Of a DNA stretch of 64,000 bases, positions 42,057-60,918 are shown piece after piece. Location: assembly GCF_008831545.1 (NCBI RefSeq), contig NZ_CP044523.1, positions 1 through 64,000 on the forward strand, given 5' to 3'. This DNA is from Halorussus halophilus. GTDB taxonomy: Archaea; Halobacteriota; Halobacteria; Halobacteriales; Haladaptataceae. How positions within the stretch are numbered: the first letter of the stretch is position 1; the number at the start of each line of letters is the position of its first letter. The notes under the pieces are model-generated. The model saw nothing but the letters and a program-made list of their open reading frames with translations, did not search any database and was not told the DNA's origin. The position numbers and the translations under genes were made by a program.

Positions 42057-42102
42057 TTTTAGTTTAACTTGATTGAATGGGGGAGCTTGGATACACTTTA
42101 GT
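42057..42102 (+). promoter_or_regulatory. Promoter of subtilase S8-1 with upstream element
   Basis: TTTTAGTTTAACTT (42057-42070) and a TATA-like CTTTAGT (42096-42102). CTTTA begins exactly 32 bases before the ATG. Both elements have close counterparts before S8-2 (45383 and 45416), the second at the same distance. Confidence 0.5.
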
Positions 42103-42127
42103 CACTCCGTCGGCAAGGCTGTGTCAC

Positions 42128-43921
42128 ATGTTCACACCAGACCAGTTCGACCGCCGTGACTTCCTCAAAGCGACCGGGGCGGCCGGAGTGGCGACGACCG
42201 TACCGTTTTCCGGCAGTGCGGCGGCGTCTACGGGGAACGCTATCGACGACAGTTTCGACTTGGGTTCGTCGGGAGTGAAGGAGGCGCTGGTCGTCTTCGA
42301 CAGCAACGAGCAGGTAGACCGACTGCGTCACCTCGATTTGGAGAACGGCTACCACAAGTTCGACGTGTTGCCAATCGCCTACACGGAACTGTACAGCGAC
42401 CAGATACAGACCATCGCCGACTGGGCGGAGGTGCGCTTCGTCCAGAAGAACGTAGAACTGGACTATCACAACAACGACGCTCGCTCGACGACGGACGCCA
42501 ACGCAGTCCACACCGACCTCGGGTACACCGGGTCGAGCGCTCACTCCGTCGTCATCGACACGGGCGTAGACGGTGACCATCCTGACCTCGAAGACGACCT
42601 CGTCGCCAACTGGCGGTACGTCAATCCGCTCTCTAGTACCGACGACACGACGTGGAAAGAAGTCGGCTCGGTGGACTCCGACGACAATGGCCACGGTACC
42701 CACTGTTCTGGGTCCATCACTGGGTCGGGCAAGAAGAGCGACGGCAAGTACAAAGGGATGGCACCGGATGCCGACCTCACCGTCTACTCGGCGGGCCTGA
42801 CACTGCTCCTCGTCAAGGCCGTCGCGGCCTACGACCACCTGCTCTCTCGGGTCCGAGCGGGTGACATCGACGTGCAAGTAGTCAGCAACTCGTGGGGCGG
42901 CGGCAACGGTACCGACTTCAACCCCGACGACGCGGCCAACGTCGCTACGTGGCACGCGTTCCAAGAAGGTATCCTCCCAGTGTTCTCGGCGGGCAACAGC
43001 GGACCCGGGTCGAACACGCTGAACCAGTACTCGACCGCGCCGCACGTCCTCAGCGTGGCCGCGACCGACGACGAGCGGAGCGTTACTGACTTCTCCTCGC
43101 GGGGTCGCACGCCGAATTACGACGGGCCGACGAACTACAAACGCAAGAGGGCCCTCGACAACTTAGAAGAGTACCACGCCGCAGACAAGACCGAGACAGA
43201 AGTCGATTCGGGCAGTTACGCAGGTACCGTGGACGCCTCCAGTAGTGCGTATCACCGCTGGGACGCCCCGAAGAAGGCAGGTTACGTCGAAGCGACGCTG
43301 TCGTGGACGCCGAGCGAGGAGGACATCGACTTCTACCTCCACGTCGGGAGCAAGGACGGTCGCGTCGTCGCCAGTAGTGCGTCGCTGAACGAACCAGAGG
43401 ACCTCGCGGGAAGCATCGAGGGTGGCAAGACGTACTACTTCGAGGTCAGGCCGTTCGCAAGCGTGGCGGCGGACTACAGCATCGACTTCACCGCTTACGA
43501 AGGCGTCACCCGGGACGTAACCCCGGTCGGTATCTACCGAAACGGCGTCGGTGCCCCCGGAAAGATGGTGATGAGTACGCTCGCGCCGAGTGACCCACTC
43601 CAGTCGTACGGCGCGACTAGCGGGGACACCGAGAACGTCGATACCGAGGACTACTACGGTCGTATCAGCGGAACTAGCATGTCTTGTCCCGTGACCTCGG
43701 GGGCCGCGACGCTGGTCGTGGACGCCTACTACCAGAACCACGGGAGTTACCCCGACCCCATCGACGTGCTGAATACGCTCGAAGCGACGGCCAAGGACTA
43801 TCAGGCGAGCTACAACCCGTGGAACATCGGTGCCGGCTTCGTTGACGCCTACGACGCGGTCCAACGGGCGGCGTCGGGAGACTTGGCTACCTTCGGCGAG
43901 GTGAACCTCACAGATTACTGA
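42128..43921 (+). CDS. Tat-exported subtilisin-like protease S8-1, PPC-type insert
   Basis: 597 residues from MFTPDQFDRRDFLKATGAAG, a Tat signal. An I9-like propeptide region (about 45-115) leads to the S8 catalytic domain: Asp144 (VVIDTGVDGDHPD), His189 (NGHGTHCSG), oxyanion Asn in FSAGNSGPG, and Ser517 (GTSMSCPV). Between the Asn and Ser blocks a ~95-residue beta domain is inserted (SYAGTVDAS ... DYSIDFTAYEG), of the type seen in pre-peptidase C-terminal (PPC) domains. It lacks the C-terminal module of the minus-strand proteins and any PGF-CTERM tail. It is predicted to be secreted, self-processing and halophilic. Followed by LVIVD-1 70 bases on. Confidence 0.93.
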   Translation: MFTPDQFDRRDFLKATGAAGVATTVPFSGSAAASTGNAIDDSFDLGSSGVKEALVVFDSNEQVDRLRHLDLENGYHKFDVLPIAYTELYSDQIQTIADWAEVRFVQKNVELDYHNNDARSTTDANAVHTDLGYTGSSAHSVVIDTGVDGDHPDLEDDLVANWRYVNPLSSTDDTTWKEVGSVDSDDNGHGTHCSGSITGSGKKSDGKYKGMAPDADLTVYSAGLTLLLVKAVAAYDHLLSRVRAGDIDVQVVSNSWGGGNGTDFNPDDAANVATWHAFQEGILPVFSAGNSGPGSNTLNQYSTAPHVLSVAATDDERSVTDFSSRGRTPNYDGPTNYKRKRALDNLEEYHAADKTETEVDSGSYAGTVDASSSAYHRWDAPKKAGYVEATLSWTPSEEDIDFYLHVGSKDGRVVASSASLNEPEDLAGSIEGGKTYYFEVRPFASVAADYSIDFTAYEGVTRDVTPVGIYRNGVGAPGKMVMSTLAPSDPLQSYGATSGDTENVDTEDYYGRISGTSMSCPVTSGAATLVVDAYYQNHGSYPDPIDVLNTLEATAKDYQASYNPWNIGAGFVDAYDAVQRAASGDLATFGEVNLTDY

Positions 43922-43991
43922 CTAGACATCACCAGTAAACTGCTCGACTACACCATCGACTGACAGCGACCCCAAAATTCGAACGATACCT

Positions 43992-45296
43992 ATGACATTC
44001 GACCGACGTGACTTCCTCAAGACGACCGGCGTAGCGCTCGCAGGAACCACCCTCTCCGGTGCAGCGACGGCAGAGTCCACCTGGAATTACGAACTCATCG
44101 GCGAGGCGCTCGACCCCGGAACGCAGGAGGTTGACGTGCAAGGCGACTACGCCTACACCGCCCAACCGGCTAGCATCGCCACGGTGGACCTCAGCGACCC
44201 ATCGCAACCGTTACTCGCGGGGACTGCGGTCGGCGAGGGCACCGACAACCTCGACGTGAAAGTCGATGGCGACCTCGCCGGACTGGCGAACGACGGCGAC
44301 CCACCCGGCGTCACGTTCTTCGACGTGAGCGACCCCACGACGCCGACGAAACTCTCGTTCTACGAGGCCGCGAGCGGCGTCCACAACTGCTTCATCGACG
44401 GCGACTACGCGTACCTCTGCATCAACGACGACTTCGCCCACTCCCGGATGGTCGTCGTGGACGTTTCGGACCCGGCTAATCCGGTCAGTCTGGAGGGCGA
44501 CGAACGCGGTTCTGGTGGGGCGTGGATGCTCGGGAACCACCACCCCGACATGGCTGCGACGGGCATCAACCCCATCCACGACCTCTGGGTGCAGGACGAC
44601 CTTGCGTACATGTGTTTCTGGGACGCGGGCGTCGTCGTCGCCGACGTTTCGGACCCGACGGTCCCGACGGCGGTCGCTCACTTCGGCGCGGCGGACGACG
44701 CGGCGGTGCAACCCGCCGACACCGTCGAATCCAACAAGCGCTACCTCGGCGGGCACAAGACTAACGCCCACTACGTCCAACCGACTCCCTCGGGCGATTA
44801 CACGTTCGTCGGTGCCGAGACGTTCCCCGGTCCGTTCGAGGACACTGCCGTGCCGGGCGACCACGGTGGTATCCGGGTGTTCGACACGAGCGACGTTTCG
44901 ACGGACTCGACGCCGTCGAACCCCTACGAGGAACACGTCGCCTACATCCCGGCACCGGAACCGCTCGACGACGCGCTCCAGACGAGTCACAACTTCGATG
45001 TCACCGACTCGAAACTGTTCACGAGTTGGTACCAAGGCGGCGTTCGGGCGTACGACATCGACGACCCGACGAGTCCGACGGAACTCGCCGCCTTCGCACC
45101 CGAGGGAACCGCCTATTGGGGCGCTCGGGTCCTCCCGACGGATGGGCCGAAACACTACACGGTCGGTAGCGACATCGGCAAGGGACTGACGGTACTCGAA
45201 CTGAACCACGAGACACCGGGCGAACAGAACTGGCAGACCGACGAGGAACTTGGACCGTACGACGTCTTCGGAAACACGATGCAACGACCGCTGTAG
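43992..45296 (+). CDS. Tat-exported LVIVD-repeat beta-propeller 1
   Basis: 434 residues. Tat signal FDRRDFLKTTGVALAGTTLSGAATA. About six LVIVD-type blades follow, each ending in a V-x-V-D-V-S-DP-x-x-P motif (IATVDLSDPSQP, VTFFDVSDPTTPT, MVVVDVSDPANP, VVVADVSDPTVPT, VRAYDIDDPTSPT). The central blades hold many His/Asn/Asp (GNHHPDMAATGINPIHDLW). LVIVD propellers are extracellular, presumably binding proteins or carbohydrate; no enzymatic function is known. Sandwiched between two subtilase genes on the same strand, so probably co-expressed with S8-1. Confidence 0.88.
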   Translation: MTFDRRDFLKTTGVALAGTTLSGAATAESTWNYELIGEALDPGTQEVDVQGDYAYTAQPASIATVDLSDPSQPLLAGTAVGEGTDNLDVKVDGDLAGLANDGDPPGVTFFDVSDPTTPTKLSFYEAASGVHNCFIDGDYAYLCINDDFAHSRMVVVDVSDPANPVSLEGDERGSGGAWMLGNHHPDMAATGINPIHDLWVQDDLAYMCFWDAGVVVADVSDPTVPTAVAHFGAADDAAVQPADTVESNKRYLGGHKTNAHYVQPTPSGDYTFVGAETFPGPFEDTAVPGDHGGIRVFDTSDVSTDSTPSNPYEEHVAYIPAPEPLDDALQTSHNFDVTDSKLFTSWYQGGVRAYDIDDPTSPTELAAFAPEGTAYWGARVLPTDGPKHYTVGSDIGKGLTVLELNHETPGEQNWQTDEELGPYDVFGNTMQRPL

Positions 45297-45382
45297 CGTT
45301 CGAGTTCGCGTCGTCGCTCCGTCTCCGAACTGTTACGCTCAATCGACTTCTCGAATCTGCCTACATACTACTCTACTGCAGT

Positions 45383-45422
45383 TTTTAATTAACTTATTTA
45401 CATCTGGCAAGTAGACTTTAAT
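45383..45422 (+). promoter_or_regulatory. Promoter of subtilase S8-2 with upstream element
   Basis: TTTTAATTAACTT (45383-45395) and TATA-like CTTTAAT (45416-45422), the latter starting 32 bases before the ATG. The pattern matches that of S8-1, suggesting a shared activator site and leaderless transcription. Confidence 0.5.
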
Positions 45423-45447
45423 TCCTCGACTTGCTATCGTCACACGC

Positions 45448-46896
45448 ATGGCAGACGTTCCTAACTTCGACCGTCGTAGCTTCCTGAAAGCAACCGGTGC
45501 TGCTGGCGTCGCTTCCACTGTTGGATTCTCTGGAACTGCCGCCGCAGGCGACACCATCCTCGACGACGCGTTCGACCTGTCACTCACACGACTCCACGAG
45601 GCGCTCGTGGTCTTCGATTCCCGCGACGACGTGGACGAACTCGACACACTGAATCTGGAAAACGGCTACTACAAGTTCGACGTGTTGCCCATCGGCTACA
45701 CGGAACTGTACAGCGACCAACTTCAGGCCCTCGCCGACTGGGACTCGGTTCGGTTCGTTCGCAAGAACGAAGAACTCGACTACTACAACGACGACGGTCG
45801 TGAAGTCACGGGGGTAAATCAAGTGCAGTCGGACCTCGGCTACAAGGGCGACGGCGTCCACACTGCTGTCATCGACTCGGGCGTGGACGGCGACCACCCC
45901 GACCTCCAGAACCAACTCGTCAACAACTGGCAGTGGTTGGGCAACCCGCTGGGTAGTCCGACACTCTGGGAAGACGTCGGCATCACAGACACCGACGGCG
46001 GCGGCCACGGCACGCACTGTTCGGGCACCATCGCAGGCGACGGCAGCGCGAGCGACGGCCAGTTCGCCGGGATGGCCGAGAACGCCGACCTCGACGTGTA
46101 CGCTGGCGGTGCCGTGCTAGTCGTGCTGAAGACCGCCGCCGCGTACGACCACATCCTCAAGCGCATCCGCGACGGCGTCAGCGACGTAAAAATTGTCAGC
46201 AACTCCTACGGTTCCTCGAACGGCGAGAGTTTCCAACCCGACAACGCGCTCAACACCGCGACGTGGGAAGCCTACAAAGAAGGTTTGCTCTCTGTGTTCG
46301 CCGCGGGCAACAGCGGCCCGAGTCCGAACACGCTCAACCAGTACGCCAAGGCACCGCAGGTGCTTGGCGTCGCCGCGACGAAAGACGACAAGACGGTCAC
46401 GGACTTCTCCTCGCGCGGTCGCACGCACCAGAGCGGCGGCGTGGACCCCGACAACTGGGACCGCCAGACCGCTCTGAACAACTTGCAGGACTACTACGAC
46501 ACCGGCAGTGCCTCTGGACCAATCGGCGTCTACCGACCGGGCATCGGCGCACCGGGCAACGCCATCGTGAGTACGATGTCGCCCGCCGACGCGCTCCAGA
46601 GTCAGAGCCCCGACGACGGCCGCCTCTGGTACGCGACGATTAGCGGCACCTCGATGGCCTGCCCGATGACCGCTGGCGTCGCTACGCTCGTCGTGGACGC
46701 CTACCGGCAGAACAACAGTGACGACATCGGCCCGATGGAACTACTGAACACGCTCACCGCGGAGGCCGAGGACGTTCACAGCGGCTACACGCCGTACAAC
46801 ATCGGTAGTGGCTTCGTAGACGCCTACGACGCCGTGAGTCGCGCGGAGAACGGCAACGTCGGGACGTTCAGCGACACGACGCTCGTCTCGAACTGA
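45448..46896 (+). CDS. Tat-exported subtilisin-like protease S8-2 (no insert)
   Basis: 482 residues, MADVPNFDRRSFLKATGAAG being the Tat signal. The propeptide (about 45-115) and S8 domain are closely related to S8-1: Asp143 (AVIDSGVDGDHPD), His187 (GGHGTHCSG), AAGNSGPS, and Ser402 (GTSMACPM). Where S8-1 has the PPC-like insert, this protein reads straight from NLQDYYDTGSASG into PIGVYRPGIGAPGN. It therefore shows the ancestral, uninterrupted domain. No C-terminal extension. A secreted protease, probably a recent duplicate of S8-1. Confidence 0.94.
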   Translation: MADVPNFDRRSFLKATGAAGVASTVGFSGTAAAGDTILDDAFDLSLTRLHEALVVFDSRDDVDELDTLNLENGYYKFDVLPIGYTELYSDQLQALADWDSVRFVRKNEELDYYNDDGREVTGVNQVQSDLGYKGDGVHTAVIDSGVDGDHPDLQNQLVNNWQWLGNPLGSPTLWEDVGITDTDGGGHGTHCSGTIAGDGSASDGQFAGMAENADLDVYAGGAVLVVLKTAAAYDHILKRIRDGVSDVKIVSNSYGSSNGESFQPDNALNTATWEAYKEGLLSVFAAGNSGPSPNTLNQYAKAPQVLGVAATKDDKTVTDFSSRGRTHQSGGVDPDNWDRQTALNNLQDYYDTGSASGPIGVYRPGIGAPGNAIVSTMSPADALQSQSPDDGRLWYATISGTSMACPMTAGVATLVVDAYRQNNSDDIGPMELLNTLTAEAEDVHSGYTPYNIGSGFVDAYDAVSRAENGNVGTFSDTTLVSN

Positions 46897-48422: not shown

Positions 48423-51400
48423 TCAGACGTTCGAGTCCGCGCCGAGGACGTTGTTCCGGTCGGTCGTCTTCGGAATCTGGACCCAGTTCTCGCCACCGTC
48501 GAGGCTGTACTCGACTGGGCCGAACTCGTAGCTCTGAGTCTCGGTCAGCGACCCGGGTGCTTCCGCGAAGTACGTTCGCGTGCCGTCTTCGACGCTGGTG
48601 TCGAATTCGACGTAGCGGGTGTCGTCGTCGGTGTAGACGGAGTGCGAATCCCCGCCTTCGACGGTCCACTCGCTGGGGAACTGGTCCCGAATTAGCACGT
48701 CGGCGTTCCCGGCGACGCTGATGTCCACCTGATTCGTCTGGCCACCCGTAAACAGGTCGCCGTCGTCGCTTCGCGTGGCAGTCACCGACGGGTCCACGCT
48801 GAAAGACCCCACGTCGCCGAACTCCGAGACCTTGCTCCCGTTGACGTAGCGGTTCTGCTTGTAGCCGAGCGCGTTCGTCAGGATAGTGTGGCCGAAGAAC
48901 GCGACGGTGTAGTCGAGCAGGCCGAACGGGTGGAGGTTCGACTGGGAGGCCGGCGGCAGTAGACTGCCGAGGACGTGGATTCCGGTCCCAGTACTTCTGT
49001 CCGGCGTCAGCGACCCGACGCTGACCTTGCCTGCCGTCTCTCCCGCGACGGTGCCGCCTGCGGCGTCGAACGCCTCGCCGTCGAGCAGATGCATCGGGGC
49101 CTGATTGCTCGTGGAGTAACCCATCGGCGCTATCTTCCACAGTTCGCGCTGGATGGGCCGGGTGTCCTCCAGCAACTCGTGGCCGGGGTACTTCTGTTCG
49201 ACGTTGGCGATGTAGAACGTCTCCTCGGTCACGTGGTCGTGGTCGATGTCCGCCGCGAACTCGTTGGCCATCGGCGCGAGCAGGCGCAGGCCCGAGTCGG
49301 TCAGCACGAGGTTGCCGTCGTCGGCGACGAACTGGTCCAAGGCATCGACGTACGTCGAGTCGCTGATGGCGTCGTCGTGGATGACGACCAGATTGTCGTA
49401 GTCGTGGTGCGCGCCGTCTTTCACGTCCGAAATCGTGAGCGCGTCTACCGGCGCGTCGGCGTACCCGGCGTAGTCTTCGAAGAACGCGAACGGCGACACC
49501 TCGTAGGAGCGTTGCTCGTAGCCCAGCGCGTCCACCGGGTCGGGGTTCTGCTCGTTGCTCTGGAGCGTGCCGAACCTGACTCCGACCTCGCCGTCTTTGC
49601 TCTCCATGAGATTCGTCGCTTCGACAGTCCATTCGCCTGTGGCGGGGTCGTCAACTGTCCACTCGGGCATGCCGACGAAGCCGTCCGCGCCGCCTTCGCC
49701 GTCTGTGGGGTCGAAGCTTCGAACGACTTCTCCACTCGGGGTTCTCAACGTCGCGGCGTGGTGGCTCCCCGGTTGGGAGTTGACCGACACCGAGAGGGTA
49801 TCGACTTCCTCGCGGACGCTCCGGTAGAGTTCGGTCGTCTGGTTCGGTCCGACCATCGCCGACTGCTCGTCGGTCTCCCGGGAAGTCTCCTTCTGGCCGT
49901 AGTCGAAATACGTACCGTCGATGGTGTAGTCGGCGGCGACGTTCGCGTACGTCTCCACGACGAAGGTGTAGGATTTTCCAGCCTCGACCGAGGCTGTGAT
50001 GGTCTCGGGGTTGCTGGCGGTCGCCGCCGTGGCGATGCGGTCGCCAGACGAATCTTCGAGGTAGAATTCGAGGTCTTCGCCCGGCGGCGTCCACGAGAGG
50101 TCTGCTTCGATGCGGTCGGCGTCCGCCACGGCAGTGAACTCGTGGCGCTTGGTCGCTTCCGCTCCCGTCGCGCCCGGTCCGATAGTTCCGGAGAACTGCT
50201 CGCCAGCGTCCATTTCCACGAAGCCAGTGTCGGGGTTCTGGACGAACGAGAGGTCTTCGGAGGAGCGGGTTAGCGAGTCGGTGGTGACGTACGCCGTCGA
50301 TGCGCCGCCGGTCTCGATGTCGGCGGTGGTCTGCTCAGTGACGTACCGCGTGATGGTCTTGATGGCGGTGTCGTAGCCGACGACCTGCATGTTCACGAGT
50401 TCGGGGTCGTAGGCGTTCGCCCCGACCATGTGTGAGTAAGCCATCTCGAAGTCCATCGTCGTCATGCCGAGACCACCGAGTTCCTCCGGTTGGGCCATCC
50501 AGTCGAGCCAGCCGCCCGAGACGGTGTAGCCGATTGTGTCCCAGATGCCCGCGTAGTCGAACGCCTCCTCCGGTAGCGTCTCGAAGCCGATTACCTCGGG
50601 ATTGAACTCGCCGGTCAGCGTCTGCTGGGCGTCCGCGAGAGTCGTCCACTCCGTCAGCGCGTCCTCTAAGGTCTCGTCGATATTCCGGTTGAACTCGTAC
50701 AGTTCGTGGAGTTGGCCGTGGTCGAACTGGTCCTGACTGATGAGTCCGAGGACGAACTTCGAGGAGGTGAGCGCACCGTGGAGGTCCGCACCGTAGTTCA
50801 GATTCTCGTAGTCGCGGAAGTGCTCCGCGACGGCGAGCAGGTCGGGGACGCGCTCGCTGGCGTAGTCGGGCACGTCGCTGTCGATGCCCGGTTCGTCGTC
50901 GGTGAGGTTCGCGCCAAGTGGGTCGCCGGGGTAGTGGCCGGGGTCTATCCACCCGACCGAGGGGGCCTGCCGGTTCGTGTCGAAGACGCCGTCGTTGCCC
51001 CGCTCGTAGAACGGTGCGACTGGCGCGCCGCCGTCCGGGCCGAGCAGTTGCCAGCCAGACTCGTACTGGGGATGCTTGGCGACCCAGCCGTCGGCGTTGG
51101 CGTAGACGAAGACGACCACGATGTCGTCGAGCAGGTCGGCAACATCCGAATCTTCGCCGGTCAACACGTCCTCGATGAACCGCGACCCGGCCTCCGCTCC
51201 GGCGCGTTCGAGCCCGTGGAGCGAGAGGCTGAACATCACCTTCTCCTTGTCTTCGAAGGCGGCGTCGTCGTTGACGTTGTTCGTCAACTCGGCGACGTAG
51301 ATGTCCTTCGGGTCGTCCTCGCCGGTCACGTAGTTGTAGTGGCCGGGGCTCTCGCCGATGCTGTAGAATTTGAGCCGGTCTGGATGCTGGGATTCGAGGT

Positions 51401-51896
51401 GGTTCAGGCCATCGACCATCTGCTCGTAGTCGATGAAGTCTGTACTCTGTCTCGGTTCGGGGAAGACGCCGTTCGGGTACTGGCCGAGTCGCCAGAACGG
51501 GTTCGACCCCGGCGAGTGACTGAGGCGTTCGGCCACACTCAGGTCGAGTACGTCGCCGACTTCGCCCGTCGCCAGTTGGGCATGAGCGTGGGGATTGCCC
51601 GACGCCGTCGTACTCCTGTAGTCGATGCCGAGGGCGTCGAGTTCTGCGAATCCGGCCTCGCTCGTCAACTCGATAAGCGTCCCCACTGCGAAGTCGTCGG
51701 CGGTGTGGTTGACGACGAACTCGTAGCGTTTCGTCATCTTGCCCGAAGTGAGCGTCGCCGCACTCGCCTCCGAACTCGCCGCACCGGGGAGCGTCAGCGC
51801 GCCAGCAGTCGCCGCCGAGAGGCGAGCGAAGTCGCGTCTCGTCAGGTCGAACTCGTCGCTCGTCTCGTCGCCCCCGTTCGTTCTTCGTTCCGTCAT
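48423..51896 (-). CDS. Tat-exported M14 zinc carboxypeptidase with shared C-terminal module
   Basis: 1157 residues. Tat signal LTRRDFARLSAATAGALTLPG. The M14 catalytic domain (about 150-510) has zinc ligands H227/E230 in LHGLERAG and H373 in ADLHGAL, plus an N-x-DG motif (YANADGW) and FDTNRQ. A PPC-like beta domain (about 570-670) precedes a second beta domain and a flavodoxin/GATase-like region near 790-1010. The C-terminal ~118 residues are the FTGGQTNQ module. Its ATG overlaps the stop of LVIVD-2 (ATGA), so the two proteins are translated together. Predicted secreted exopeptidase, perhaps finishing the peptides made by the subtilases. Confidence 0.88.
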   Translation of the reverse strand: MTERRTNGGDETSDEFDLTRRDFARLSAATAGALTLPGAASSEASAATLTSGKMTKRYEFVVNHTADDFAVGTLIELTSEAGFAELDALGIDYRSTTASGNPHAHAQLATGEVGDVLDLSVAERLSHSPGSNPFWRLGQYPNGVFPEPRQSTDFIDYEQMVDGLNHLESQHPDRLKFYSIGESPGHYNYVTGEDDPKDIYVAELTNNVNDDAAFEDKEKVMFSLSLHGLERAGAEAGSRFIEDVLTGEDSDVADLLDDIVVVFVYANADGWVAKHPQYESGWQLLGPDGGAPVAPFYERGNDGVFDTNRQAPSVGWIDPGHYPGDPLGANLTDDEPGIDSDVPDYASERVPDLLAVAEHFRDYENLNYGADLHGALTSSKFVLGLISQDQFDHGQLHELYEFNRNIDETLEDALTEWTTLADAQQTLTGEFNPEVIGFETLPEEAFDYAGIWDTIGYTVSGGWLDWMAQPEELGGLGMTTMDFEMAYSHMVGANAYDPELVNMQVVGYDTAIKTITRYVTEQTTADIETGGASTAYVTTDSLTRSSEDLSFVQNPDTGFVEMDAGEQFSGTIGPGATGAEATKRHEFTAVADADRIEADLSWTPPGEDLEFYLEDSSGDRIATAATASNPETITASVEAGKSYTFVVETYANVAADYTIDGTYFDYGQKETSRETDEQSAMVGPNQTTELYRSVREEVDTLSVSVNSQPGSHHAATLRTPSGEVVRSFDPTDGEGGADGFVGMPEWTVDDPATGEWTVEATNLMESKDGEVGVRFGTLQSNEQNPDPVDALGYEQRSYEVSPFAFFEDYAGYADAPVDALTISDVKDGAHHDYDNLVVIHDDAISDSTYVDALDQFVADDGNLVLTDSGLRLLAPMANEFAADIDHDHVTEETFYIANVEQKYPGHELLEDTRPIQRELWKIAPMGYSTSNQAPMHLLDGEAFDAAGGTVAGETAGKVSVGSLTPDRSTGTGIHVLGSLLPPASQSNLHPFGLLDYTVAFFGHTILTNALGYKQNRYVNGSKVSEFGDVGSFSVDPSVTATRSDDGDLFTGGQTNQVDISVAGNADVLIRDQFPSEWTVEGGDSHSVYTDDDTRYVEFDTSVEDGTRTYFAEAPGSLTETQSYEFGPVEYSLDGGENWVQIPKTTDRNNVLGADSNV
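48426..48779 (-). other. C-terminal FTGGQTNQ module, copy 1 (M14)
   Basis: 118 residues: ATRSDDGDLFTGGQTNQVDISV start, then RDQFPSEWTV, TRTYFAEAPGSLTETQSYEFGPVEYS, DGGENWVQIP, ending NNVLGADSNV. The same block ends S8-3 and S8-4 and lies near the end of LVIVD-2. Confidence 0.85.
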
Positions 51897-53902
51897 TGGT
51901 CGTCACCTCCCGTCGTTTCTTCGTCGTCTCCAACTGTCTCGCCGACACCCTCCACGAACTCTCGAATCCCGTCGCGGAAGTGGTAGGCCGCCGTGCCGAA
52001 CACTGTACTCGCGCCAGCGAACCCGACCGTCGAAGTCGAGGTGCCGAGGACGGTGTTCGTCTCGGTCGTTCCTGCTACCTCGGTCCACGTCTCGCCGCCA
52101 TCTGCGCTGTACTCGACGGGGCCGAAGGTGTAGTCGCCAGTCTGCTCGACGCCGCTCGGTGCCTCTGCGAAGTACGTCCGTTCACCCGCTTCGACCGGCA
52201 TCTCGAAGGTCACGTAGGTTCGGCCCCCGGCCGTGTGCGTGCTGTGGGCGTCGCCCTCCACGACCTCCCACTCTTCGGGAATCTCGTCTCGGACGAGCAC
52301 CGACTCGTCAGCACCGACTGCGAGGTCTACTCTGTTCGTCTGACCACCGGTGAACGCAGAGCCGTCGTCCTGTCGTTCGACGCTGACGTGCGCACCAGCA
52401 CCGGGGTCGTCACCGAACGGGACGTACTCGTTGTGGACGGCGTAGACGCCGGTGTTGATGTCAGAGGCGAACGTCACCCCGTTCTGCTCGACGGCGGTCC
52501 ACGTGAACGGCACCGCCGAGTTCAGCCCCTCCATCTTCGAGTCTTCCGGTACGTCCTTGTGGGGTTTGTAGTAGCCGCGCTCGTCGAGCGACCAATCAGC
52601 CGTCTCGACTCGCAGGAAGCGAACACCGCCGTGGTAGTGGCCGAGATGGACCCACCCGTCTTCAGTCACGTCGAAGTTGTGCGGACTGAGCGTGAAGTTG
52701 CTGAACGAGACGTTCGGTTGCCACTCCCACACGTCGAGTTCGTCGAGGTCGGGCGTCTCTGTAGTCGTCCCGTCCTCCTCGTAGATGGGGTCGGCGTCCA
52801 CGAGGTGAATCGTGCCGGTCGAACCGTCGGTCTGACTCGGCGTCTCTTGGCCGGTGACGAGGACGCGCTTGCCGTCGATGAGTTGGGGCGCGGGTTCGGC
52901 GTAGTGGCCGCGGTTCATCTCGAAGTGCCCCACGGCGGAGATGTCGAGCGGGTCCGAGAGGTCCAGCGCGTAGACGCCCTCGTTCCAGTAGGAGAGGTAG
53001 CCCGTCGGCGTCCCCGTCTTCGGGTCGTCTTGTACGGTGATGTCGTGGATGTAGGTCGTCCCCGAGGTAGCACCGCCGTTGGTCCACTGGTTGACCACCG
53101 CGAACTGCCCGGTCGTCCGGTCGAATTCGAGGACGTAGAGTCCGGCAGTCCCATCACCGGTATCGTGGATGGCGAACAGGTATTCGGTGCCGTCGATCCG
53201 GTGGTAGTAGGCGTTGTGCGACCCGGTCGTCCAGCCTTCGTACGCGCCGACGACTTCGGGGTTGCCGGGGTCCGAGACGTCCACCGCGACGACGGAACCG
53301 GCCGACACGTCTCCCGACTCGCCGTCAGTGCTCGGCTTCGGGTCCACATCGTCGTACAGCGCGGTGTAGGGCTGTTTGCTCAGGAAGACGTAGTCGCCGT
53401 CGTCACTGACTTTCAGGTCCATCACGGCCGCCCCCGAGTTCAGGTTGCGCACGAACGAGAGGACGGACAACTCCGCGTCTCGCAACTCCTCGTACGTCTC
53501 TGCGTCGTTGAAGTCGTGGATGTCGAGGATGGCCATCCCCCGGTCGTTCGTCGGCGACTTCGAGGAGAAGAAGCCGACGTAGGCGTAGTCGCCGTGGACT
53601 CGCAGTTCCGTGGCGGCCCCGTAGTGGGGTTCGTCGGGGTCGCCCGCGTTGCTGGACGGCCCGACGCCGCCGAGACTGTGATAGTCGAGCAGTTCGGTGT
53701 TCTGCGAGTCGGTGTGCTGACTCGGGTCGGTGTGGTCGTGGCCCTCCGAGGAGGACGAGGACCCCGAACTGTCCGAACCGAACTCGTGTGCGCTCGCGGA
53801 ACCGGTGGCCGCGAGGCCGCTGGCGGTCACTCCGAGCGCCTGCAGGACTGTTCGTCGGTCGATGCTGGTACCGATGTCGTCGCTGGGGGAATCGTCTGTC
53901 AT
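51893..53902 (-). CDS. Tat-exported LVIVD-repeat beta-propeller 2 with shared C-terminal module
   Basis: 669 residues. Tat signal IDRRTVLQALGVTASGLAATGSASA. After a Ser/His/Asp-rich linker (to about 70) come LVIVD blades (HGDYAYVGFFSSK, VVAVDVSDPGNPEVVGAYEG, VYALDLSDPLDISAVGHFEMNRG), spread over about 450 residues. The FTGGQTNQ module occupies about residues 508-624. A ~45-residue tail follows, with a possible helix (AAYHFRDGIREFVEGVGETV). It is the first gene of the unit with the M14 peptidase (ATGA overlap). Functions as an extracellular binding scaffold by analogy; no activity is known. Confidence 0.87.
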   Translation of the reverse strand: MTDDSPSDDIGTSIDRRTVLQALGVTASGLAATGSASAHEFGSDSSGSSSSSEGHDHTDPSQHTDSQNTELLDYHSLGGVGPSSNAGDPDEPHYGAATELRVHGDYAYVGFFSSKSPTNDRGMAILDIHDFNDAETYEELRDAELSVLSFVRNLNSGAAVMDLKVSDDGDYVFLSKQPYTALYDDVDPKPSTDGESGDVSAGSVVAVDVSDPGNPEVVGAYEGWTTGSHNAYYHRIDGTEYLFAIHDTGDGTAGLYVLEFDRTTGQFAVVNQWTNGGATSGTTYIHDITVQDDPKTGTPTGYLSYWNEGVYALDLSDPLDISAVGHFEMNRGHYAEPAPQLIDGKRVLVTGQETPSQTDGSTGTIHLVDADPIYEEDGTTTETPDLDELDVWEWQPNVSFSNFTLSPHNFDVTEDGWVHLGHYHGGVRFLRVETADWSLDERGYYKPHKDVPEDSKMEGLNSAVPFTWTAVEQNGVTFASDINTGVYAVHNEYVPFGDDPGAGAHVSVERQDDGSAFTGGQTNRVDLAVGADESVLVRDEIPEEWEVVEGDAHSTHTAGGRTYVTFEMPVEAGERTYFAEAPSGVEQTGDYTFGPVEYSADGGETWTEVAGTTETNTVLGTSTSTVGFAGASTVFGTAAYHFRDGIREFVEGVGETVGDDEETTGGDDQ
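52031..52381 (-). other. C-terminal FTGGQTNQ module, copy 2 (LVIVD-2)
   Basis: 117 residues: RQDDGSAFTGGQTNRVDLAV, RDEIPEEWEVVEG, ERTYFAEAPSGVEQTGDYTFGPVEYSADGGETW, TETNTVLGT. Unlike the other copies it is followed by 45 further residues. Confidence 0.85.
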
Positions 53903-54017
53903 GGTCGTGAATTCACGTGTAAGCTCTCACTGTGGACCGTTTCGACCGTTCTGGACCGGGCCGTCGTCTCGACGTCGCCGCTCGACGCCGGTCGTAACCG
54001 TGTTTCGTGTTCTGAGT

Positions 54018-54031
54018 TAACACGGGTGTTA
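54018..54031. promoter_or_regulatory. TAACAC-GG-GTGTTA palindrome in the LVIVD-2/M14 promoter
   Basis: Perfect 6-base arms, about 6 bases downstream (gene side) of a TATA-like TATAAT (54038-54043 on the plus strand). That position, between TATA and the expected transcription start, is typical of a repressor operator. It lies 116-129 bases before the LVIVD-2 ATG. Confidence 0.5.
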
Positions 54032-54093
54032 CGAAGGTATAATCTTGTTGGGCGTTTAGATGAGTTTATTCTGGCCTTAGCGTATCTAACGTC

Positions 54094-56316
54094 TCACGTA
54101 TTCGTGCTCTCGGCGACGACTGTGTTCGTGTCCGTGCCGCCGAAGGCGACCCAGTCGTCGTCTGTCTTCGCCGAATTCGCCTCGGCCGGGCCGAACGCGT
54201 AGTCGCCCGTCTCGCTGGTCGAACTCGGTGCTTCCGCGAAGTACGTGCGAGTCGCGCTCGTCTCGTCTGGCGCGACGTTGCCGAGATAGACGTGTTTCAC
54301 GTCTCCCGCTCGCTCGACGCGCTCTACGTCGCCAGCATCCGAGACTGTCCATTCGCTCGGAATCGTGTCTCGAATCTCTGCGCCGTGCGAGAGCGCCGAG
54401 ACGGTCACGTCAACCTGATTCGTTTGACCGCCGGTGAAAGCGTCACCGTCGTCGCTTCTAGTGCCCGATACCGACAGACTCGTCGGCGTGTCGGGGTCGG
54501 CCAGCGATACGTCTCTGAAGTTGGCGAGGTTGCCGGAGTCGGCCCGCTTCACTGCGGCCGCGGCGTCGGCGAACCCTGCGCCGATATTCCACGGCGTGTG
54601 CGAGACGTGCGAGTCAGTCGCCGTCGCCTCGACGGTGTTGATGACCTCGATTGGGTGCGGGTCGTAGTCGTTCGCTCTGGCGGCGTCGATGACGAGCGTA
54701 CAGATGCCAGCGGCGACCGGACAGGCCATCGACGTGCCGCTCATCGGCGTGTAGTACGCCCGCTCGTCCGGGGCCAACGCGTCCAGGGGGTCGGTCGGGC
54801 CGACGGTACTCACGACGGCGTTGCCCGGCGTTCCGATGGCGGGCCGATAGATGCCGACGGGCCGGTACCGAGTCGGTTCGCCGAGTTGCTCGTGAGACTC
54901 GTAGTCGATGGTGTACTCGACTGCGACCGACACCATCGGTTCGACTTCGACGTAGTAGGTCGTCCCGCCCTCCACGTCGGTTTCCAGCGTCCGGTGCTGA
55001 TACACTGGCTCTTCCCCCATCTGGGCGACGACCGTGCCGTCCTCGCTCCCGCGCCGAACCGACACCCGGACCTGCTGGCCGTCGGGCGAGATGTCGAGGG
55101 TGAGTTCGAGCGTGTCGGCGTTGTTCGGCGCGACCCACTCGTAGAAGTCACTCTCCGTGGAAGCGTCGGTGCCCGCCGTCGAACTGTCGGCCGCGGGGCC
55201 GACGGTGCCCTCCCACGTTCCGGTGTCTACGACGTACTGACCGCGATTCGACGCGGCGTGGAAGCGCGACAGATTCCACAGCGCGTCCTTGCGGTCGTAG
55301 TTCGTCTCTCGGTCCTCGTCGGGGGTGCGTCCGCGCGAGGAGAAGTCCGTCACGTGCTCGTCGTCGCGGGTCGCCGCCACACAGAGGACGTGCGGCGCCT
55401 TGCCGAACCGCGAGAGGGTGTCCGCGTCCGGCCCGGAGTTTCCGGCCGCGAAGACGGGGAGAATTCCGCGACCGAACGCCTCCCACGTGGCGACGTTCAG
55501 CGGGTCGTTCGGGTTGTAGCGCACGTCTCGCGCCACGCCGTAGGAGTTCGACACCACGTCGGGGTCGAAGTCGTCGTCGGGGTCGGCGGCCCGCCCGAGC
55601 AGGTGGTCCCACGCGCCGATGGCGTACGGCAGATAGACCGTCTCGTTGGTCGAGTACACCGAGATGCGCGCGCCGGGGGCCATGCCTTTGAACTGACCGT
55701 CGCTCGCGCTCCCGTCGCCTGCGATGCTCCCCGCGCAGTGAGTACCATGGCCGAGGTCGTCGGTGTCGGCGTTCGCGCCGAGATTCGTCCAGTCGGCGTC
55801 TCGCGTGCCGAGCGGGTTGTCCACCCACTGCCAGTTCGATTCGAGTCGGCCGTCGAAGTCGGGATGCGGTCCCGAAAACCCGGAGTCGATGACTACGACA
55901 TCGACGCTCGACCCGTCGTAGCCCAGTTCGTTCTGCACTACGTCTGCGCCGGTTGCCTCTCTGGCGTCGTCGTTGAAGTACGTCAGTTGCTCGGCCTTCT
56001 TCACTCGGCGAACCGAGTCGTCCTCGGCAATCGTCCGAATCTGGTCACCCGACAGCGCTGTGTAGCTGATGGGCAGGTTCTCGTAGTCGTGTTTGCCGTC
56101 GAGGTCGAAACTGTCGAGCAGGCTCATCGACTCCTGCGTGTCGAACACGACCAGCACTTCCTGCGGCCCGGCGGCCGACAGGTCCAGTTGGTCGTCTATC
56201 GTCGTCTTGTCGGCGGTTTCGCTGGCCGCCCCGACGCCCGCGAACGGGAGCAACGAGGCCGCGCCGACCGACTTGAGTGCGGTGCGCCGCGTGAACCGAA
56301 AGCTGTGGTCTGTCAT
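54094..56316 (-). CDS. Tat-exported subtilisin-like protease S8-3 with PPC insert and shared module
   Basis: 740 residues. Tat signal FTRRTALKSVGAASLLPFAGVG. Propeptide about 45-115. The S8 domain has Asp144 (VVIDSGFSGPHPD), His190 (LGHGTHCAG), FAAGNSGPD, and Ser529 (GTSMACPVAAG). A PPC-like domain (TWEGTVGP ... VEYTIDYESHEQ) is inserted at the same place as in S8-1. After the S8 domain a short linker leads to the FTGGQTNQ module (last ~123 residues, DGDAFTGGQTNQVDVTV to TNTVVAESTNT). Secreted protease. It is 87 bases downstream of S8-4 with no promoter-like sequence, so probably one operon. Confidence 0.93.
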   Translation of the reverse strand: MTDHSFRFTRRTALKSVGAASLLPFAGVGAASETADKTTIDDQLDLSAAGPQEVLVVFDTQESMSLLDSFDLDGKHDYENLPISYTALSGDQIRTIAEDDSVRRVKKAEQLTYFNDDAREATGADVVQNELGYDGSSVDVVVIDSGFSGPHPDFDGRLESNWQWVDNPLGTRDADWTNLGANADTDDLGHGTHCAGSIAGDGSASDGQFKGMAPGARISVYSTNETVYLPYAIGAWDHLLGRAADPDDDFDPDVVSNSYGVARDVRYNPNDPLNVATWEAFGRGILPVFAAGNSGPDADTLSRFGKAPHVLCVAATRDDEHVTDFSSRGRTPDEDRETNYDRKDALWNLSRFHAASNRGQYVVDTGTWEGTVGPAADSSTAGTDASTESDFYEWVAPNNADTLELTLDISPDGQQVRVSVRRGSEDGTVVAQMGEEPVYQHRTLETDVEGGTTYYVEVEPMVSVAVEYTIDYESHEQLGEPTRYRPVGIYRPAIGTPGNAVVSTVGPTDPLDALAPDERAYYTPMSGTSMACPVAAGICTLVIDAARANDYDPHPIEVINTVEATATDSHVSHTPWNIGAGFADAAAAVKRADSGNLANFRDVSLADPDTPTSLSVSGTRSDDGDAFTGGQTNQVDVTVSALSHGAEIRDTIPSEWTVSDAGDVERVERAGDVKHVYLGNVAPDETSATRTYFAEAPSSTSETGDYAFGPAEANSAKTDDDWVAFGGTDTNTVVAESTNT
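54097..54465 (-). other. C-terminal FTGGQTNQ module, copy 3 (S8-3)
   Basis: About 123 residues at the extreme C-terminus: TRSDDGDAFTGGQTNQVDVTV, RDTIPSEWTV, TRTYFAEAPSSTSETGDYAFGPAEAN, TDTNTVVAES. It is the most divergent in the segment after FGP. Confidence 0.85.
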
Positions 56317-56403
56317 GGTCAGTGTACTGAAATCGGAGGTTGGTGATGTCGGAAAACGGGGTGGTAGGGGGAGCTGGGTTGGATTGGACTGGACAGGGAC
56401 TGT

Positions 56404-59226
56404 TCAGAGGTCGCTGTCGGTTCCGGCGACGACGTTCGTGTCGCTCGTGCCCGAAAGCTGGACCCACGTCTCGCCGCCGTCCGGAGAGACCTGCACGGGG
56501 CCGAAGCTATAGGCGTTCGACTGCGTCTCTTCTGCGGGTGCCTCCACGAAGTACGTCGCCGAGAGGTCGCTCCCCTCGCCGAGGTAGACGAACTGCCGGT
56601 CGCCGTTGCTCTCGACGCGCGTCACGTCGTCGCTGTAGTCTTCCAGCACATCCCACTCGGGCGGTACCACGTCTCGCACCTTCACCGACTCGCTCGCGGA
56701 GACGGAGATGTCGATTTGGTTGGTCTGACCACCAGTAAAGGCGTCACCGTCGTCGCTTCGGGTGCCGGAGGCGGTGAACCCTTGCACCGTACTCGTCGAG
56801 AGGTCGAAGTGCGCCTGCACGTCGTCGCCGTTCAGCACGCCCGGAATCTGGACGAGTTTGGCGACGACGTAGTAGGTGCCGCCCTCCGTCGTGAACGTCA
56901 CCGAGGGACTGCCCTGCAGGCCCTGCGCTCGCGCCACGACGTTCGGTTCGCCGTTCGTCGCGGGCGTTTCGGCGTCGTAGACGAAGAGGTCGATATGGGG
57001 GCTTCCGGTCGCGGACCCCTTGTCGCCGCCCGAGAGGTGGCTGAACGAGACGGATGCCTCGTAGGTACCAGGGCCGACTTCGAGGTAGCCTGCGGCTGCG
57101 CGCTCGTCGTCGGGCACGTTCAGGCCGACTTCCGCGCTGATACTGCCCGAAGCCGACAGTTCGCGAGTCACGGCGTCGATTGCCGGACCGGGATTCACGC
57201 GGCCGAACCCTTCGAAGGGGTCTCGGCCACCGAAGTCGTAGGTCGGAGCCTTCGCACGGTGGTACGGCGCGGCCGTGAGTGCAGTCTCCGTCGCCGTCGC
57301 CAGCAACACCTGCTTCAGGCGCATCACGTCGTCGAACTCCGTATCGGTCGGCGCGGGGAGCGAGATGCTCGACGGCGCGTCTTCCTCCATCGCTTGGGCG
57401 AGGAGTCCGGAGACGCCGGTCGTGTAGGGACTCGCCATCGAGGTACCCGCGAGTCCGGTGTAGTCTCGAATCGCTGGCTGGTTGCTCTCGGGCGTGTCGG
57501 CCGCTCCGGCCAGCACTGCGTTTGCGAGGTCGGTCAGTGTGCCGCCCGGTGCGGTCACGTCCGGTTTCATGTACGCGCCGCCTTCGTCTTCGTCTATCGC
57601 GCCGATGCCGCCGGAGGAGTAGCCCGAGATGCCGTCGAGCGGTCCAGTTGCGACGACCGAAATCGCCTCGTCTGCGACCGCGGGCGACCCGTTACCGTTG
57701 GCGGGCGTCGCGGCGTTGCCAGCCGCGGCACAAGTCAGGATGCCGCCCTCGGCGATTTCTTTAATCGAACCGGGAATCCGGTCGAGCGTGCCCGCGGCCG
57801 CACCGAGCGGCAGGCCGCCCACGTAGCCCCACGACATGTTCACCGTCCGCATGTTGAAGATGTCGGCGAACTGGCTCGCGTGACGGCTCAGGTCCTCTGT
57901 CGGGGCCGACAGCCCTTGCAGGCACATGATGCTCTGGTCGGGTGCGAGTCCGGTGTGGAGTCCAGCGTCGCCGTCGGCCGAGCGGTCGCCGACCGTACTC
58001 TGTGGGTCGAGGAACGGTCCGACGGCCACCGTCTCGGCGTAGGCCGCCGTCGCCTTCTGGCCTTCCTGGGTCTCGACGTAGACAGTGTACGTGCCGGTCT
58101 GCTCGGCGGGCGCTTCGACCACGTTGTTGTCCCACTCGCTGGCGTCGTTCGTCGCCGTCGAGGTGTCGAGGGTCTGGCCGTCCGGTCCCTCGATTCGCAT
58201 TTGGAGGAGTTTGCCGTACGCCGACCCGAAGACGCCGGTTCCGGCCTCGGCCTCGACTTCGTAGGCGAGAACGCCGTCAGTCACGGCCGAGAGGACGGTC
58301 TGCGGCGCGTGTTCCTCGGCCGCCGATTCGTCTATCGCGCTGCCGCGGCCGCTCCCCGCCATGATGGACGAGCAGTGACTGCCGTGGCCGTCTGGGTCGC
58401 GAGGCTTCTTCCGCAGGCCGTAGCGCGAACTGGCGTCGTACCAGCCAACGGCTTTCGGCGTGTCCGGTGCGGGCGCGCCGCCAGTCCCCTCGAAGACGAC
58501 GCTCGAATCGTAGGTCTGCACCGTCCCCTCGATTTCGTAGTAGGTGCCCGAAATCTCGTAGGTCGTCGTCGTGTTGACGTATGCCTCGACGACGAAGCGG
58601 TACTTCGTCCCAGCGTCCACTGGCACGGTAATCTTCTCGGGCATGCTCGCCGTCGCCGCGCGGGCACTGGTCTCCCACTGGCCATCGACGTACTCGTCGA
58701 TGCGGAACTCCAAGTCGTTGCTCGCGTCGGCGTTCGGCGACCACGAGAGTTCCGCGTCGAGTTCATCGACGCCGCTCGGTGCGGTGAACTCGTGATACTT
58801 CTCCTCGCCCGTGGCGAAGGTTCCCGGTCCCATCGTCCCCGAGAACGACTCGCTGTCGCCGGTCTTCACGCGACTCACGTCGTTCTCCTCGGGCTTGGTC
58901 AGTTTCACTTGGCCGTCTTCGATGAACGCTTGGACGCCGTTCCACGGCCCGAGGTCGGGGTGGCGCACCTCTTGGCCGCTGTCGGTCAGCGCGAGCGTTC
59001 GGTCCGAACGGCCGCGATAGCCCCGGTCCCACGCGTGTTGGGCCTCGCGGGCACGCCAGTTGCGATACGTGCCGTCGAAGCCATCTGCCGCGGCGGCCGT
59101 CCCGGAAACGCCCAGCAACCCGACCGCGGCAGTTGCTCCCGACGCTTGCAGGAAAGTCCGCCGACTCAAGTCAGAATTAGCACTATCTCCGCTCCCGTCG
59201 AAACGTGTGTCGTCTTCCCCTGTCAT
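56404..59226 (-). CDS. Tat-exported subtilisin-like protease S8-4, two inserts and shared module
   Basis: 940 residues from MTGEDDTRFDGSGD; a 48-residue upstream extension is unlikely. Tat signal SRRTFLQASGATAAVGLLGV. S8 catalytic Asp82 (LALTDSGQEVRHPD), His281 (DGHGSHCSS), Asn in CAAAGNAA and Ser in GLAGTSMASPY. Between Asp and His lies a PPC-like domain (about 127-235); between His and Asn another beta domain (about 305-440). It belongs to a different S8 branch from S8-1/2/3. The tail is a PPC-like beta domain (about 725-815), then the FTGGQTNQ module (last 120 residues). First gene of the minus-strand protease unit; divergent from the winged-helix membrane protein. Confidence 0.92.
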   Translation of the reverse strand: MTGEDDTRFDGSGDSANSDLSRRTFLQASGATAAVGLLGVSGTAAAADGFDGTYRNWRAREAQHAWDRGYRGRSDRTLALTDSGQEVRHPDLGPWNGVQAFIEDGQVKLTKPEENDVSRVKTGDSESFSGTMGPGTFATGEEKYHEFTAPSGVDELDAELSWSPNADASNDLEFRIDEYVDGQWETSARAATASMPEKITVPVDAGTKYRFVVEAYVNTTTTYEISGTYYEIEGTVQTYDSSVVFEGTGGAPAPDTPKAVGWYDASSRYGLRKKPRDPDGHGSHCSSIMAGSGRGSAIDESAAEEHAPQTVLSAVTDGVLAYEVEAEAGTGVFGSAYGKLLQMRIEGPDGQTLDTSTATNDASEWDNNVVEAPAEQTGTYTVYVETQEGQKATAAYAETVAVGPFLDPQSTVGDRSADGDAGLHTGLAPDQSIMCLQGLSAPTEDLSRHASQFADIFNMRTVNMSWGYVGGLPLGAAAGTLDRIPGSIKEIAEGGILTCAAAGNAATPANGNGSPAVADEAISVVATGPLDGISGYSSGGIGAIDEDEGGAYMKPDVTAPGGTLTDLANAVLAGAADTPESNQPAIRDYTGLAGTSMASPYTTGVSGLLAQAMEEDAPSSISLPAPTDTEFDDVMRLKQVLLATATETALTAAPYHRAKAPTYDFGGRDPFEGFGRVNPGPAIDAVTRELSASGSISAEVGLNVPDDERAAAGYLEVGPGTYEASVSFSHLSGGDKGSATGSPHIDLFVYDAETPATNGEPNVVARAQGLQGSPSVTFTTEGGTYYVVAKLVQIPGVLNGDDVQAHFDLSTSTVQGFTASGTRSDDGDAFTGGQTNQIDISVSASESVKVRDVVPPEWDVLEDYSDDVTRVESNGDRQFVYLGEGSDLSATYFVEAPAEETQSNAYSFGPVQVSPDGGETWVQLSGTSDTNVVAGTDSDL
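56407..56766 (-). other. C-terminal FTGGQTNQ module, copy 4 (S8-4)
   Basis: 120 residues: TRSDDGDAFTGGQTNQIDISVSASESVKVRDVVPPEWDV, SATYFVEAPAEETQSNAYSFGPVQVSPDGGETWVQL, TNVVAGTDSDL. The invariant points across all four copies are DDG, FTGGQTNxxD, RDxxPxEW, TYFxEAP, FGP and a TN/NN-V ending. Confidence 0.85.
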
Positions 59227-59394: not shown

Positions 59395-60918
59395 ATGTTC
59401 AGTCGTACCACGCGTTTCGCCGTCGCGTTTCTCCTCGCGGTCTCGCTCAGCGGAGCGGTGGTACTCGTGTCCGCCGGACCGGCCGCGAACGAAGTCGATG
59501 CGCCGCTAACTACGACGGTCGATTCGTCAGTGACGACGACAGTCGATGGCAACGCGAGCGGTGACGCTGGCGGGTCGGCGGTGACTGCTACCGAGGCGTC
59601 CACCATCCCCACTACGACGACGCTCTCCGATTCTCCGACGGTCACTACGACAGACCCGACGAACGCCACGGTCACGGACTCACCAGACACGACCACGCTC
59701 GATTCGGCCGTCACGACAGTTGAGGAGTCGGTCACCACGACGGTCGATTCTCCCGTGAACGACACCACCGCGGTCGAAGTGACGACGGATGTGCCCGACT
59801 CGACGGCCGGAACGGCCCCGAGCGCGAACGATACCCTCGATGATTCGACAGACGGGGCGACCACCGTCGCAGGGTCGGTCGGAGACGCAACCGACTCGCT
59901 GCAAAACACGACTGTACTGGACGACGTTTCGAGTACCCAGAACGCGAATCTCACGGTCTCAGGGTCGCTCGGCGGGGGGTCGGCGACCGGAAGTGGAGAA
60001 GACGGCGGCGAGTCCGGCAGTTCGGACGCTGGTAGCTCCGACTCCGACGGAGACCAGCAGTCCGAAGCAGATTCGGAGATGGCCGGAGCGAGCGACGCTG
60101 GTGACGCCGACGGAAACACCGACGACTCCACGGACGACGCGACTGTCGGCGCGTCCGACTCCGACCGTCTCCTTTCAGTCGGGACCGATGGTTCGGCCCC
60201 GATTCCAGTCAATCGAACGACCGCGGCGGTCGGTCTCGGCGCGCTGACGGCGGCGGCACTGGTCCACCAGTTCTCCGATGGCATCACCTTGGTCGGCAAC
60301 TCCGGCGTGGCGTCCTCGTCGGCCGCGACGGTCTCCGCTGGAGCGTCCAGTGCGAAAGCCGCAGTCAGGAGTCGCTTCGAAGACCTCTGGCGACTCGTCG
60401 CGCCGTTCCGCTACAGTAGCTACGACGATTCGGACCCCCTGAATCACCGGACGCGGGCGACGCTCCACGAGCGCATCGAGCGCTCGCCGGGGACGTACCT
60501 CTCGGAACTCACCGACCGCGTAGACGTGCCGGTCTCCACGGCGAAGCACCACCTCGACGTGCTGGAGAAGGAAGGGCTGATAATGGCGGCCAAAGTTCGA
60601 GGGAAGCGTCGCTTCTATCCGGCGCACGCGGAGGACGTGGAACTCACCGCCGCGATCGAAGACTCGGCGACTGCCGCCGTGTTGCACGCACTCGCGCGCC
60701 TCGGCGACGCCAGTGGCGGCGACGTCGCAGACGAGTTGGGTCGGGACGCCAGTACTGTCTCGCACCACCTCTCGCGCCTCGAAGACGCAGGGCTAATCGA
60801 GCGCGAACGGGAGGGCCGAGCGGTCGTCAACCGACTGGTGCCCGAGGTGCGAGCGACCTTGGAGGGACGGCCAGAAGTCGATGCGGATACTGGCGCTCGA
60901 AGCGGGACGGCAGACTGA
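59395..60918 (+). CDS. Membrane-anchored double winged-helix regulator with Thr-rich exported stalk
   Basis: 507 residues. N-terminal signal-like segment TTRFAVAFLLAVSLSGAVVLVSAGPA. About 230 residues of Thr/Ser/Asp-rich low-complexity stalk (many TTTVDS-type repeats and N-x-T sequons) follow. A weak membrane helix TTAAVGLGALTAAALVHQF near 285 comes next. The C-terminal third carries two consecutive winged HTH domains: LHERIERSPGTYLSELTDRVDVPVSTAKHHLDVLEKEGLI and LARLGDASGGDVADELGRDASTVSHHLSRLEDAGLIERE (ArsR/MarR-like). This places DNA-binding domains inside and a stalk outside. It is divergent from the S8-4/S8-3 unit, so a likely regulator of the protease island; the signal is unknown. Confidence 0.85.
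   Translation: MFSRTTRFAVAFLLAVSLSGAVVLVSAGPAANEVDAPLTTTVDSSVTTTVDGNASGDAGGSAVTATEASTIPTTTTLSDSPTVTTTDPTNATVTDSPDTTTLDSAVTTVEESVTTTVDSPVNDTTAVEVTTDVPDSTAGTAPSANDTLDDSTDGATTVAGSVGDATDSLQNTTVLDDVSSTQNANLTVSGSLGGGSATGSGEDGGESGSSDAGSSDSDGDQQSEADSEMAGASDAGDADGNTDDSTDDATVGASDSDRLLSVGTDGSAPIPVNRTTAAVGLGALTAAALVHQFSDGITLVGNSGVASSSAATVSAGASSAKAAVRSRFEDLWRLVAPFRYSSYDDSDPLNHRTRATLHERIERSPGTYLSELTDRVDVPVSTAKHHLDVLEKEGLIMAAKVRGKRRFYPAHAEDVELTAAIEDSATAAVLHALARLGDASGGDVADELGRDASTVSHHLSRLEDAGLIEREREGRAVVNRLVPEVRATLEGRPEVDADTGARSGTAD

Follow-up and report, generated by a model that had tools for sequence, protein, structure and literature searches.

A predicted Ig-like C-terminal domain appended to secreted hydrolases of haloarchaea, with a possible role in surface retention

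Four neighboring genes on the minus strand of the window analyzed here (the first 64,000 nucleotides of contig NZ_CP044523.1 of Halorussus halophilus) encode two subtilases, an M14 carboxypeptidase and an LVIVD propeller that have a C-terminal block of about 125 residues in common, which raises the question of what the same terminal module might do on such different proteins. The M14 zinc carboxypeptidase (48423..51896; 1157 aa; PF00246, E-value 6e-9; HxxE...H and E motifs) carries the module in its last 128 residues (48426..48809). The LVIVD protein (51893..53902; 669 aa), identified by Pfam, an AlphaFold2 model and a fold search, consists of a propeller (residues ~66-495), the module (~500-622; 52028..52411) and a tail of 44-48 residues in which the model places a helix (631-654). 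Subtilase S8a (54094..56316; 740 aa; PF00082, E-value 3e-32) and subtilase S8b (56404..59226; 940 aa from an inner ATG, the start being either 59226 or 59370; PF00082, E-value 7e-25) both end with the module (54097..54495 and 56407..56796, respectively). The catalytic motifs are intact in the carboxypeptidase and in both subtilases, including the D/H/S triads of the latter. Each of the four proteins shows a twin-arginine signal, and the Tat export that had been proposed for them is likely, with S8b alone passing the Pfam TAT cut-off.

The open reading frames and coordinates of the four blocks were confirmed, and the blocks align without large gaps, with pairwise identities of 44-52% and BLASTP E-values of 1e-21 to 1e-33. 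The sequence-only reading of this locus had placed the block at or near the C-terminus and listed its invariant points; both observations hold, the LVIVD copy being the one that is followed by additional residues, and the motifs RxDDG, FTGGQTN, RDxxPxEW, TYFxEAP, FGP and N-V are invariant in the four. A profile built from these copies retrieves them from the complete 4.45 Mb genome with E-values of 2e-57 to 6e-64, along with a fifth copy (936562-936933, E-value 2e-30) located at the end of a purple acid phosphatase that also has a twin-arginine signal. The similarity is thus far beyond chance, the fifth copy providing the independent case.

As that reading had also surmised, the block does not belong to a recognized named family: no Pfam or NCBIfam model covers it. 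Searches of both libraries with the four window proteins matched the host domains and nothing above cut-off within the block, and 129 copies scanned singly gave no more than scattered weak matches to families of the Ig-like type, DUF11, NPCBM_assoc and bMG10 among them. Eight of these 129 match DUF11 at E-value ≤1 (the best at 0.0042), below the Pfam cut-off, and whole host proteins with a hint of DUF11 score 17 bits against a cut-off of 24.6. The match of 19 of the 129 copies to a single SxDGGxTW motif, again below cut-off, was read as a hairpin motif only, and BNR/Asp-box identity was rejected. A sequence search of the PDB with the module profile yielded chance matches only. The block is not an ordinary linker either, given its confidently predicted fold and its conservation. 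The best-kept positions over the 129 copies are R13, D16, T21, G23, Q24, D42, P45, W48, D54, V67, P85, G97, P98 and V121, and the module is essentially devoid of cysteine.

The AlphaFold2 model of the LVIVD copy, computed with the 129 aligned copies, is an all-beta domain, a beta-sandwich, with a mean pLDDT of 92.9. Its best match among solved structures is 9IFR, a CLIPPER (formerly DUF11) domain (Foldseek E-value 2e-6, TM 0.62-0.64); the Ig-like domains of integrin, cohesin and reeler follow, and the fold is therefore a common one. Profile comparison against haloarchaeal DUF11 copies gives a probability of 94, with the xxDxxP motif in register, and against methanogen-type repeats a probability of 98. 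Pfam assigns several of the latter repeats to DUF11 or bMG10 above its cut-off. These repeats (L159-L164), the closest sequence relatives outside the class Halobacteria (E-values to 1e-12), share with the module an early Arg, PxGW, TYTYxVxVP and GxYxF, but are N-terminal, occur one to four in a row and belong to proteins without a matched enzyme domain. Together, the structural match and the profile comparison bear out the DUF11-like character noticed earlier in the block.

The cross-link in 9IFR runs through Lys715, Asp748 and Asn806 and confers stability and protease resistance on the domain studied; some DUF11 domains lack this isopeptide bond (PMC12617251). In the module, Asp42 (96%) aligns with the DUF11 Asp and Arg13 (97% Arg, never Lys) with the DUF11 Lys, a correspondence taken from the alignment rather than from model coordinates, with the position of the CLIPPER Asn lying outside the aligned stretch. 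From its position, we infer that Arg13 replaces the isopeptide lysine, in which case the bond cannot form. Judging from the model and the alignments, the module is a divergent, apparently non-cross-linked, Ig-like distant relative of DUF11/CLIPPER (PF01345), with the same E-set, CnaA-like beta-sandwich predicted for it. It differs from DUF11 in that all copies scanned fall below the Pfam cut-off, in that Arg aligns with the Lys of the Lys-Asp-Asn triad (itself not universal in DUF11), and in that it is single, terminal and attached to enzymes, whereas DUF11 usually, if not obligatorily, forms tandem internal stalks.

Profile searches recovered about 150 distinct copies of the module. Among the 391 Halobacteria genomes sampled, 40, representing 22 of 86 genera, contain matches, from at least one to at least ten per genome, the copy numbers being lower bounds because the best ten candidates of each genome were scored. 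Two of the 40 are marginal, G217 and G345, the latter resembling ordinary DUF11. In the genus of the window, two of eight genomes match, so presence is sporadic. A pattern-based scan of genome contigs found 14 loci, all haloarchaeal, and the sample of the phylum outside the class gave weak matches only, mostly tandem repeats. Plasmid matches are confined to Haladaptatus and Halocatena. In 11 genomes there is one clear copy, which is always on S8b and never on LVIVD; S8b is therefore the most constant host. The nearest relative of 98 of the 129 copies lies in the same host class of another genome, and this, together with the moderate identity of the four window copies, led us to reject recent duplication or wholesale exchange of modules in the window. 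One nearest pair crosses host classes inside a genome (G287, S8b and M14, 61% identity). The S8b and M14 modules of Halegenticoccus soli (L012:2915-3304 and L012:8085-8474) share a stretch that is almost the same in both, EWTVLTEHSDDV.RVEDAGDVQYVYF, as local gene conversion would produce.

The position of the module is nearly fixed. Among 153 distinct unbroken copies, 131 end no more than 4 residues from the C-terminus, six end 5-16 residues from it and 16 are followed by a tail of at least 25 residues, 14 of these on LVIVD proteins; none is internal or tandem, and no protein has two copies. The hosts, assigned to classes by clustering and Pfam, are S8b subtilases (48), LVIVD propellers (30), S8a subtilases (24), M14 carboxypeptidases (19), S15/CocE hydrolases (18), purple acid phosphatases (6) and a few unassigned proteins. 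These counts tie the module to hydrolases, mostly peptidases, rather than to random exported proteins, the distribution that the sequence-only reading would have taken as evidence against itself. A Tat-like signal, recognized by a regular expression rather than a trained predictor, is present in 137 of 155 hosts, and most of the exceptions look cut or wrongly extended; in none of the 137 is the signal followed by a lipobox Cys. The LVIVD hosts show a weak match, below cut-off, to the NCBI choice-of-anchor B family, the name of which implies interchangeable anchors.

The module is an add-on to finished hydrolases, since module-less M14 and subtilase homologs stop cleanly at the junction. Within the window, the upstream module-less subtilases match S8a right up to the start of its module, and one of them (42077..43921, plus strand) is 48% identical to S8a until that point. 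This gene begins a second, module-free array on the opposite strand (42077-46896) with the order subtilase-LVIVD-subtilase, continued by an LVIVD protein that also lacks the tail (43992..45296) and another subtilase (45448..46896). Of 194 genomes, 33 contain homologs of the M14 protein at E-value ≤1e-60; in the loci read, the module occurs on them in only three genomes besides that of the window (G045, G047 and G175). Most of the others terminate with the junction sequence (NALGFxQRRY...GxxR, followed directly by the stop), one has a PGF-CTERM-type tail at the junction, and nearly all module-less homologs end without any anchor. Close homologs of S8b (10 genomes) and of the LVIVD protein (6 genomes) were found only in module-carrying genomes, and a purple acid phosphatase homolog at E-value ≤1e-50 only in the window genome among those sampled.

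A second, PPC-like domain is common to the M14 protein and three subtilases, with varying placement relative to the catalytic residues. In the M14 protein it follows the catalytic domain (residues 542-665; 49902..50273, minus strand) and is 46% identical to S8b residues 109-231 (E-value 5e-21). Sequence comparison places it between the triad residues Asp and His in S8b (58534..58902, minus strand) and between His and Ser in both S8a (54904..55215, minus strand) and the upstream paralog of S8a (43205-43501, plus strand). The subtilase at 45448 lacks it.

Module genes are strongly clustered, with 61 of 131 copies within 10 kb of another copy against 2.8 expected under random placement, and S8b-S8a-M14-LVIVD combinations recur. 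In the same-genus genome G383 (L139), a region aligns to the M14 and S8b genes of the window with the module on both, and no S8a or LVIVD copy of the module lies between them. Recurrent neighbors are HTH_10/BAT regulators, winged-helix regulators and an M48 protease. The HTH_10/BAT-type sensory regulators are found near module genes in L012, L015, L019, L056, L063, L066 and L069 as well as in L076, L078, L091, L123, L124 and L152. M48 (HtpX-like) protease genes lie close to clusters of module genes, chiefly within a single family of genomes (L057, L060, L061, L071, L080, L090, L096 and others). The winged-helix type is represented in the window by the divergently transcribed gene 59395..60918 (plus strand), which encodes an N-terminal T/S-rich part, a hydrophobic segment and two winged-helix domains. 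Sequences related to its HTH part are found repeatedly next to module genes, and the outer part of the 59395..60918 product could be a protease target. Beyond such regulators, the M48 protease and general genes, no dedicated receptor or sortase was found beside the module genes.

What, then, might the module do? We tentatively favor, at a somewhat less than even chance, a retention or targeting tag that binds a common cell-surface component and keeps hydrolases near the cell. The domain has been added to finished Tat-type hydrolases, most constantly the S8b subtilase; the hydrolase would leave the cell by Tat, and the folded domain would then bind a common surface component (for example the S-layer, a glycan or a surface protein), which would keep the bound hydrolases close to the cell. 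A terminal position that is strictly kept, one copy per protein, hosts that are unrelated to each other and clean junctions, together with the 137 Tat-like signals, are more reminiscent of a tag than of a catalytic accessory, and the inclusion of a phosphatase and a non-enzymatic propeller among the hosts means that the function does not depend on any single catalytic chemistry. The genomes with a single copy further imply that the domain has to work in the absence of another module-bearing protein. Counting against a tag, most module-less M14 relatives lack an anchor, so that retention is dispensable for the M14 family, and neither a dedicated sorting enzyme nor a receptor was found beside the module genes. 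The C-terminal extension of a halolysin is known to contribute to stability and to the binding of substrate (PMC3158780). Of the sorting or anchoring role proposed earlier, sorting or retention is possible.

A tag of this kind invites comparison with the PGF-CTERM/archaeosortase A system, likewise a C-terminal add-on to secreted haloarchaeal proteins and represented on one M14 homolog. The module, however, is a folded domain of 125 residues, not a tail of motif, transmembrane segment and Arg residues. None of the module proteins ends with a PGF motif, hydrophobic segment and Arg cluster, as had been stated at the outset; their tails lack PGF and are weakly hydrophobic. The further suggestion that the module replaces archaeosortase anchoring finds no support: the window genome has both systems, encoding archaeosortase A (E-value 1e-95) and at least 10 PGF-CTERM proteins, and module-less M14 proteins are nearly all anchorless. 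A more specific form of retention, in which a folded, non-cross-linked CLIPPER-type C-terminal domain attaches Tat-exported hydrolases to one particular receptor in the envelope, independently of lipid anchoring by archaeosortase, we consider rather unlikely.

A close rival to surface retention, between which and the tag sequence alone does not decide, is a substrate-binding and stabilizing extension, a possible although somewhat doubtful reading. Here, the module would keep peptides or proteins in contact with the catalytic domains and would protect the enzymes in high salt, like the C-terminal extension of halolysin SptA, a modeled beta-jelly-roll that provides stability, aids protein hydrolysis and binds collagen (PMC3158780). 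The two are alike, by description, as C-terminal beta-structures on secreted haloarchaeal subtilases; the SptA extension contains a disulfide, and the nearly cysteine-free module is set apart by this difference. About 110 of the approximately 150 hosts belong to the peptidase families S8, M14 and S15, the PPC-like domain is a second non-catalytic domain common to these peptidases, and the studied CLIPPER domain is more stable and protease-resistant through its bond (PMC12617251). Substrate binding fits less well with the purple acid phosphatases and non-enzymatic propellers among the hosts, with an M14 family that lacks the module in most genomes, and with a module that is never tandem or internal, unlike many binding domains.

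Assembly of the enzymes into one complex, either by modules binding each other or by a tailed LVIVD propeller acting as a membrane-held hub, would account for the clustering, the recurrent combinations and the concentration of tails on LVIVD proteins, in which AlphaFold2 draws a C-terminal helix. We nevertheless consider it quite unlikely, and the earlier proposal of such a complex is disfavored, because 11 genomes hold a single copy, none of them on LVIVD, and in G383 both S8b and M14 bear the module, but no LVIVD or S8a protein does. The tail of the window protein (51896..52027, minus strand), a G/A-rich stretch followed by basic residues, is weakly hydrophobic and its helix is of low confidence; hydrophobicity values of the tails lie mostly at 0.6-1.3, compared with 2.2-2.4 in two PGF-CTERM segments, and a membrane anchor was rejected. 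Similar tails, also with low-confidence helices, follow 13 other LVIVD copies.

To our knowledge, haloarchaea have no outer membrane to cross, and a role of the module as a signal to dedicated machinery for secretion or sorting is very improbable, there being no candidate machine beside the module genes and no match to NCBIfam sorting-domain models (thresholds: E-value ≤1 for the four proteins of the window and 0.01 for seven other hosts), even though the type IX C-terminal domains, which come from another domain of life and show no sequence match, are likewise Ig-like, located at the extreme C-terminus and borne by diverse secreted proteins including proteases (PMC4804311).

The module defines a domain family missed by current libraries and joins several secreted haloarchaeal enzymes of unknown fate in one testable class; the test is made easy by natural pairs with and without the module, namely the S8a paralogs in the window and the M14 proteins of different genomes. 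The apparent Lys-to-Arg change would make it an example of a CLIPPER-type fold in which no isopeptide bond is expected. If the module does retain enzymes at the surface, it would represent a protein-based alternative to archaeosortase lipid anchoring.
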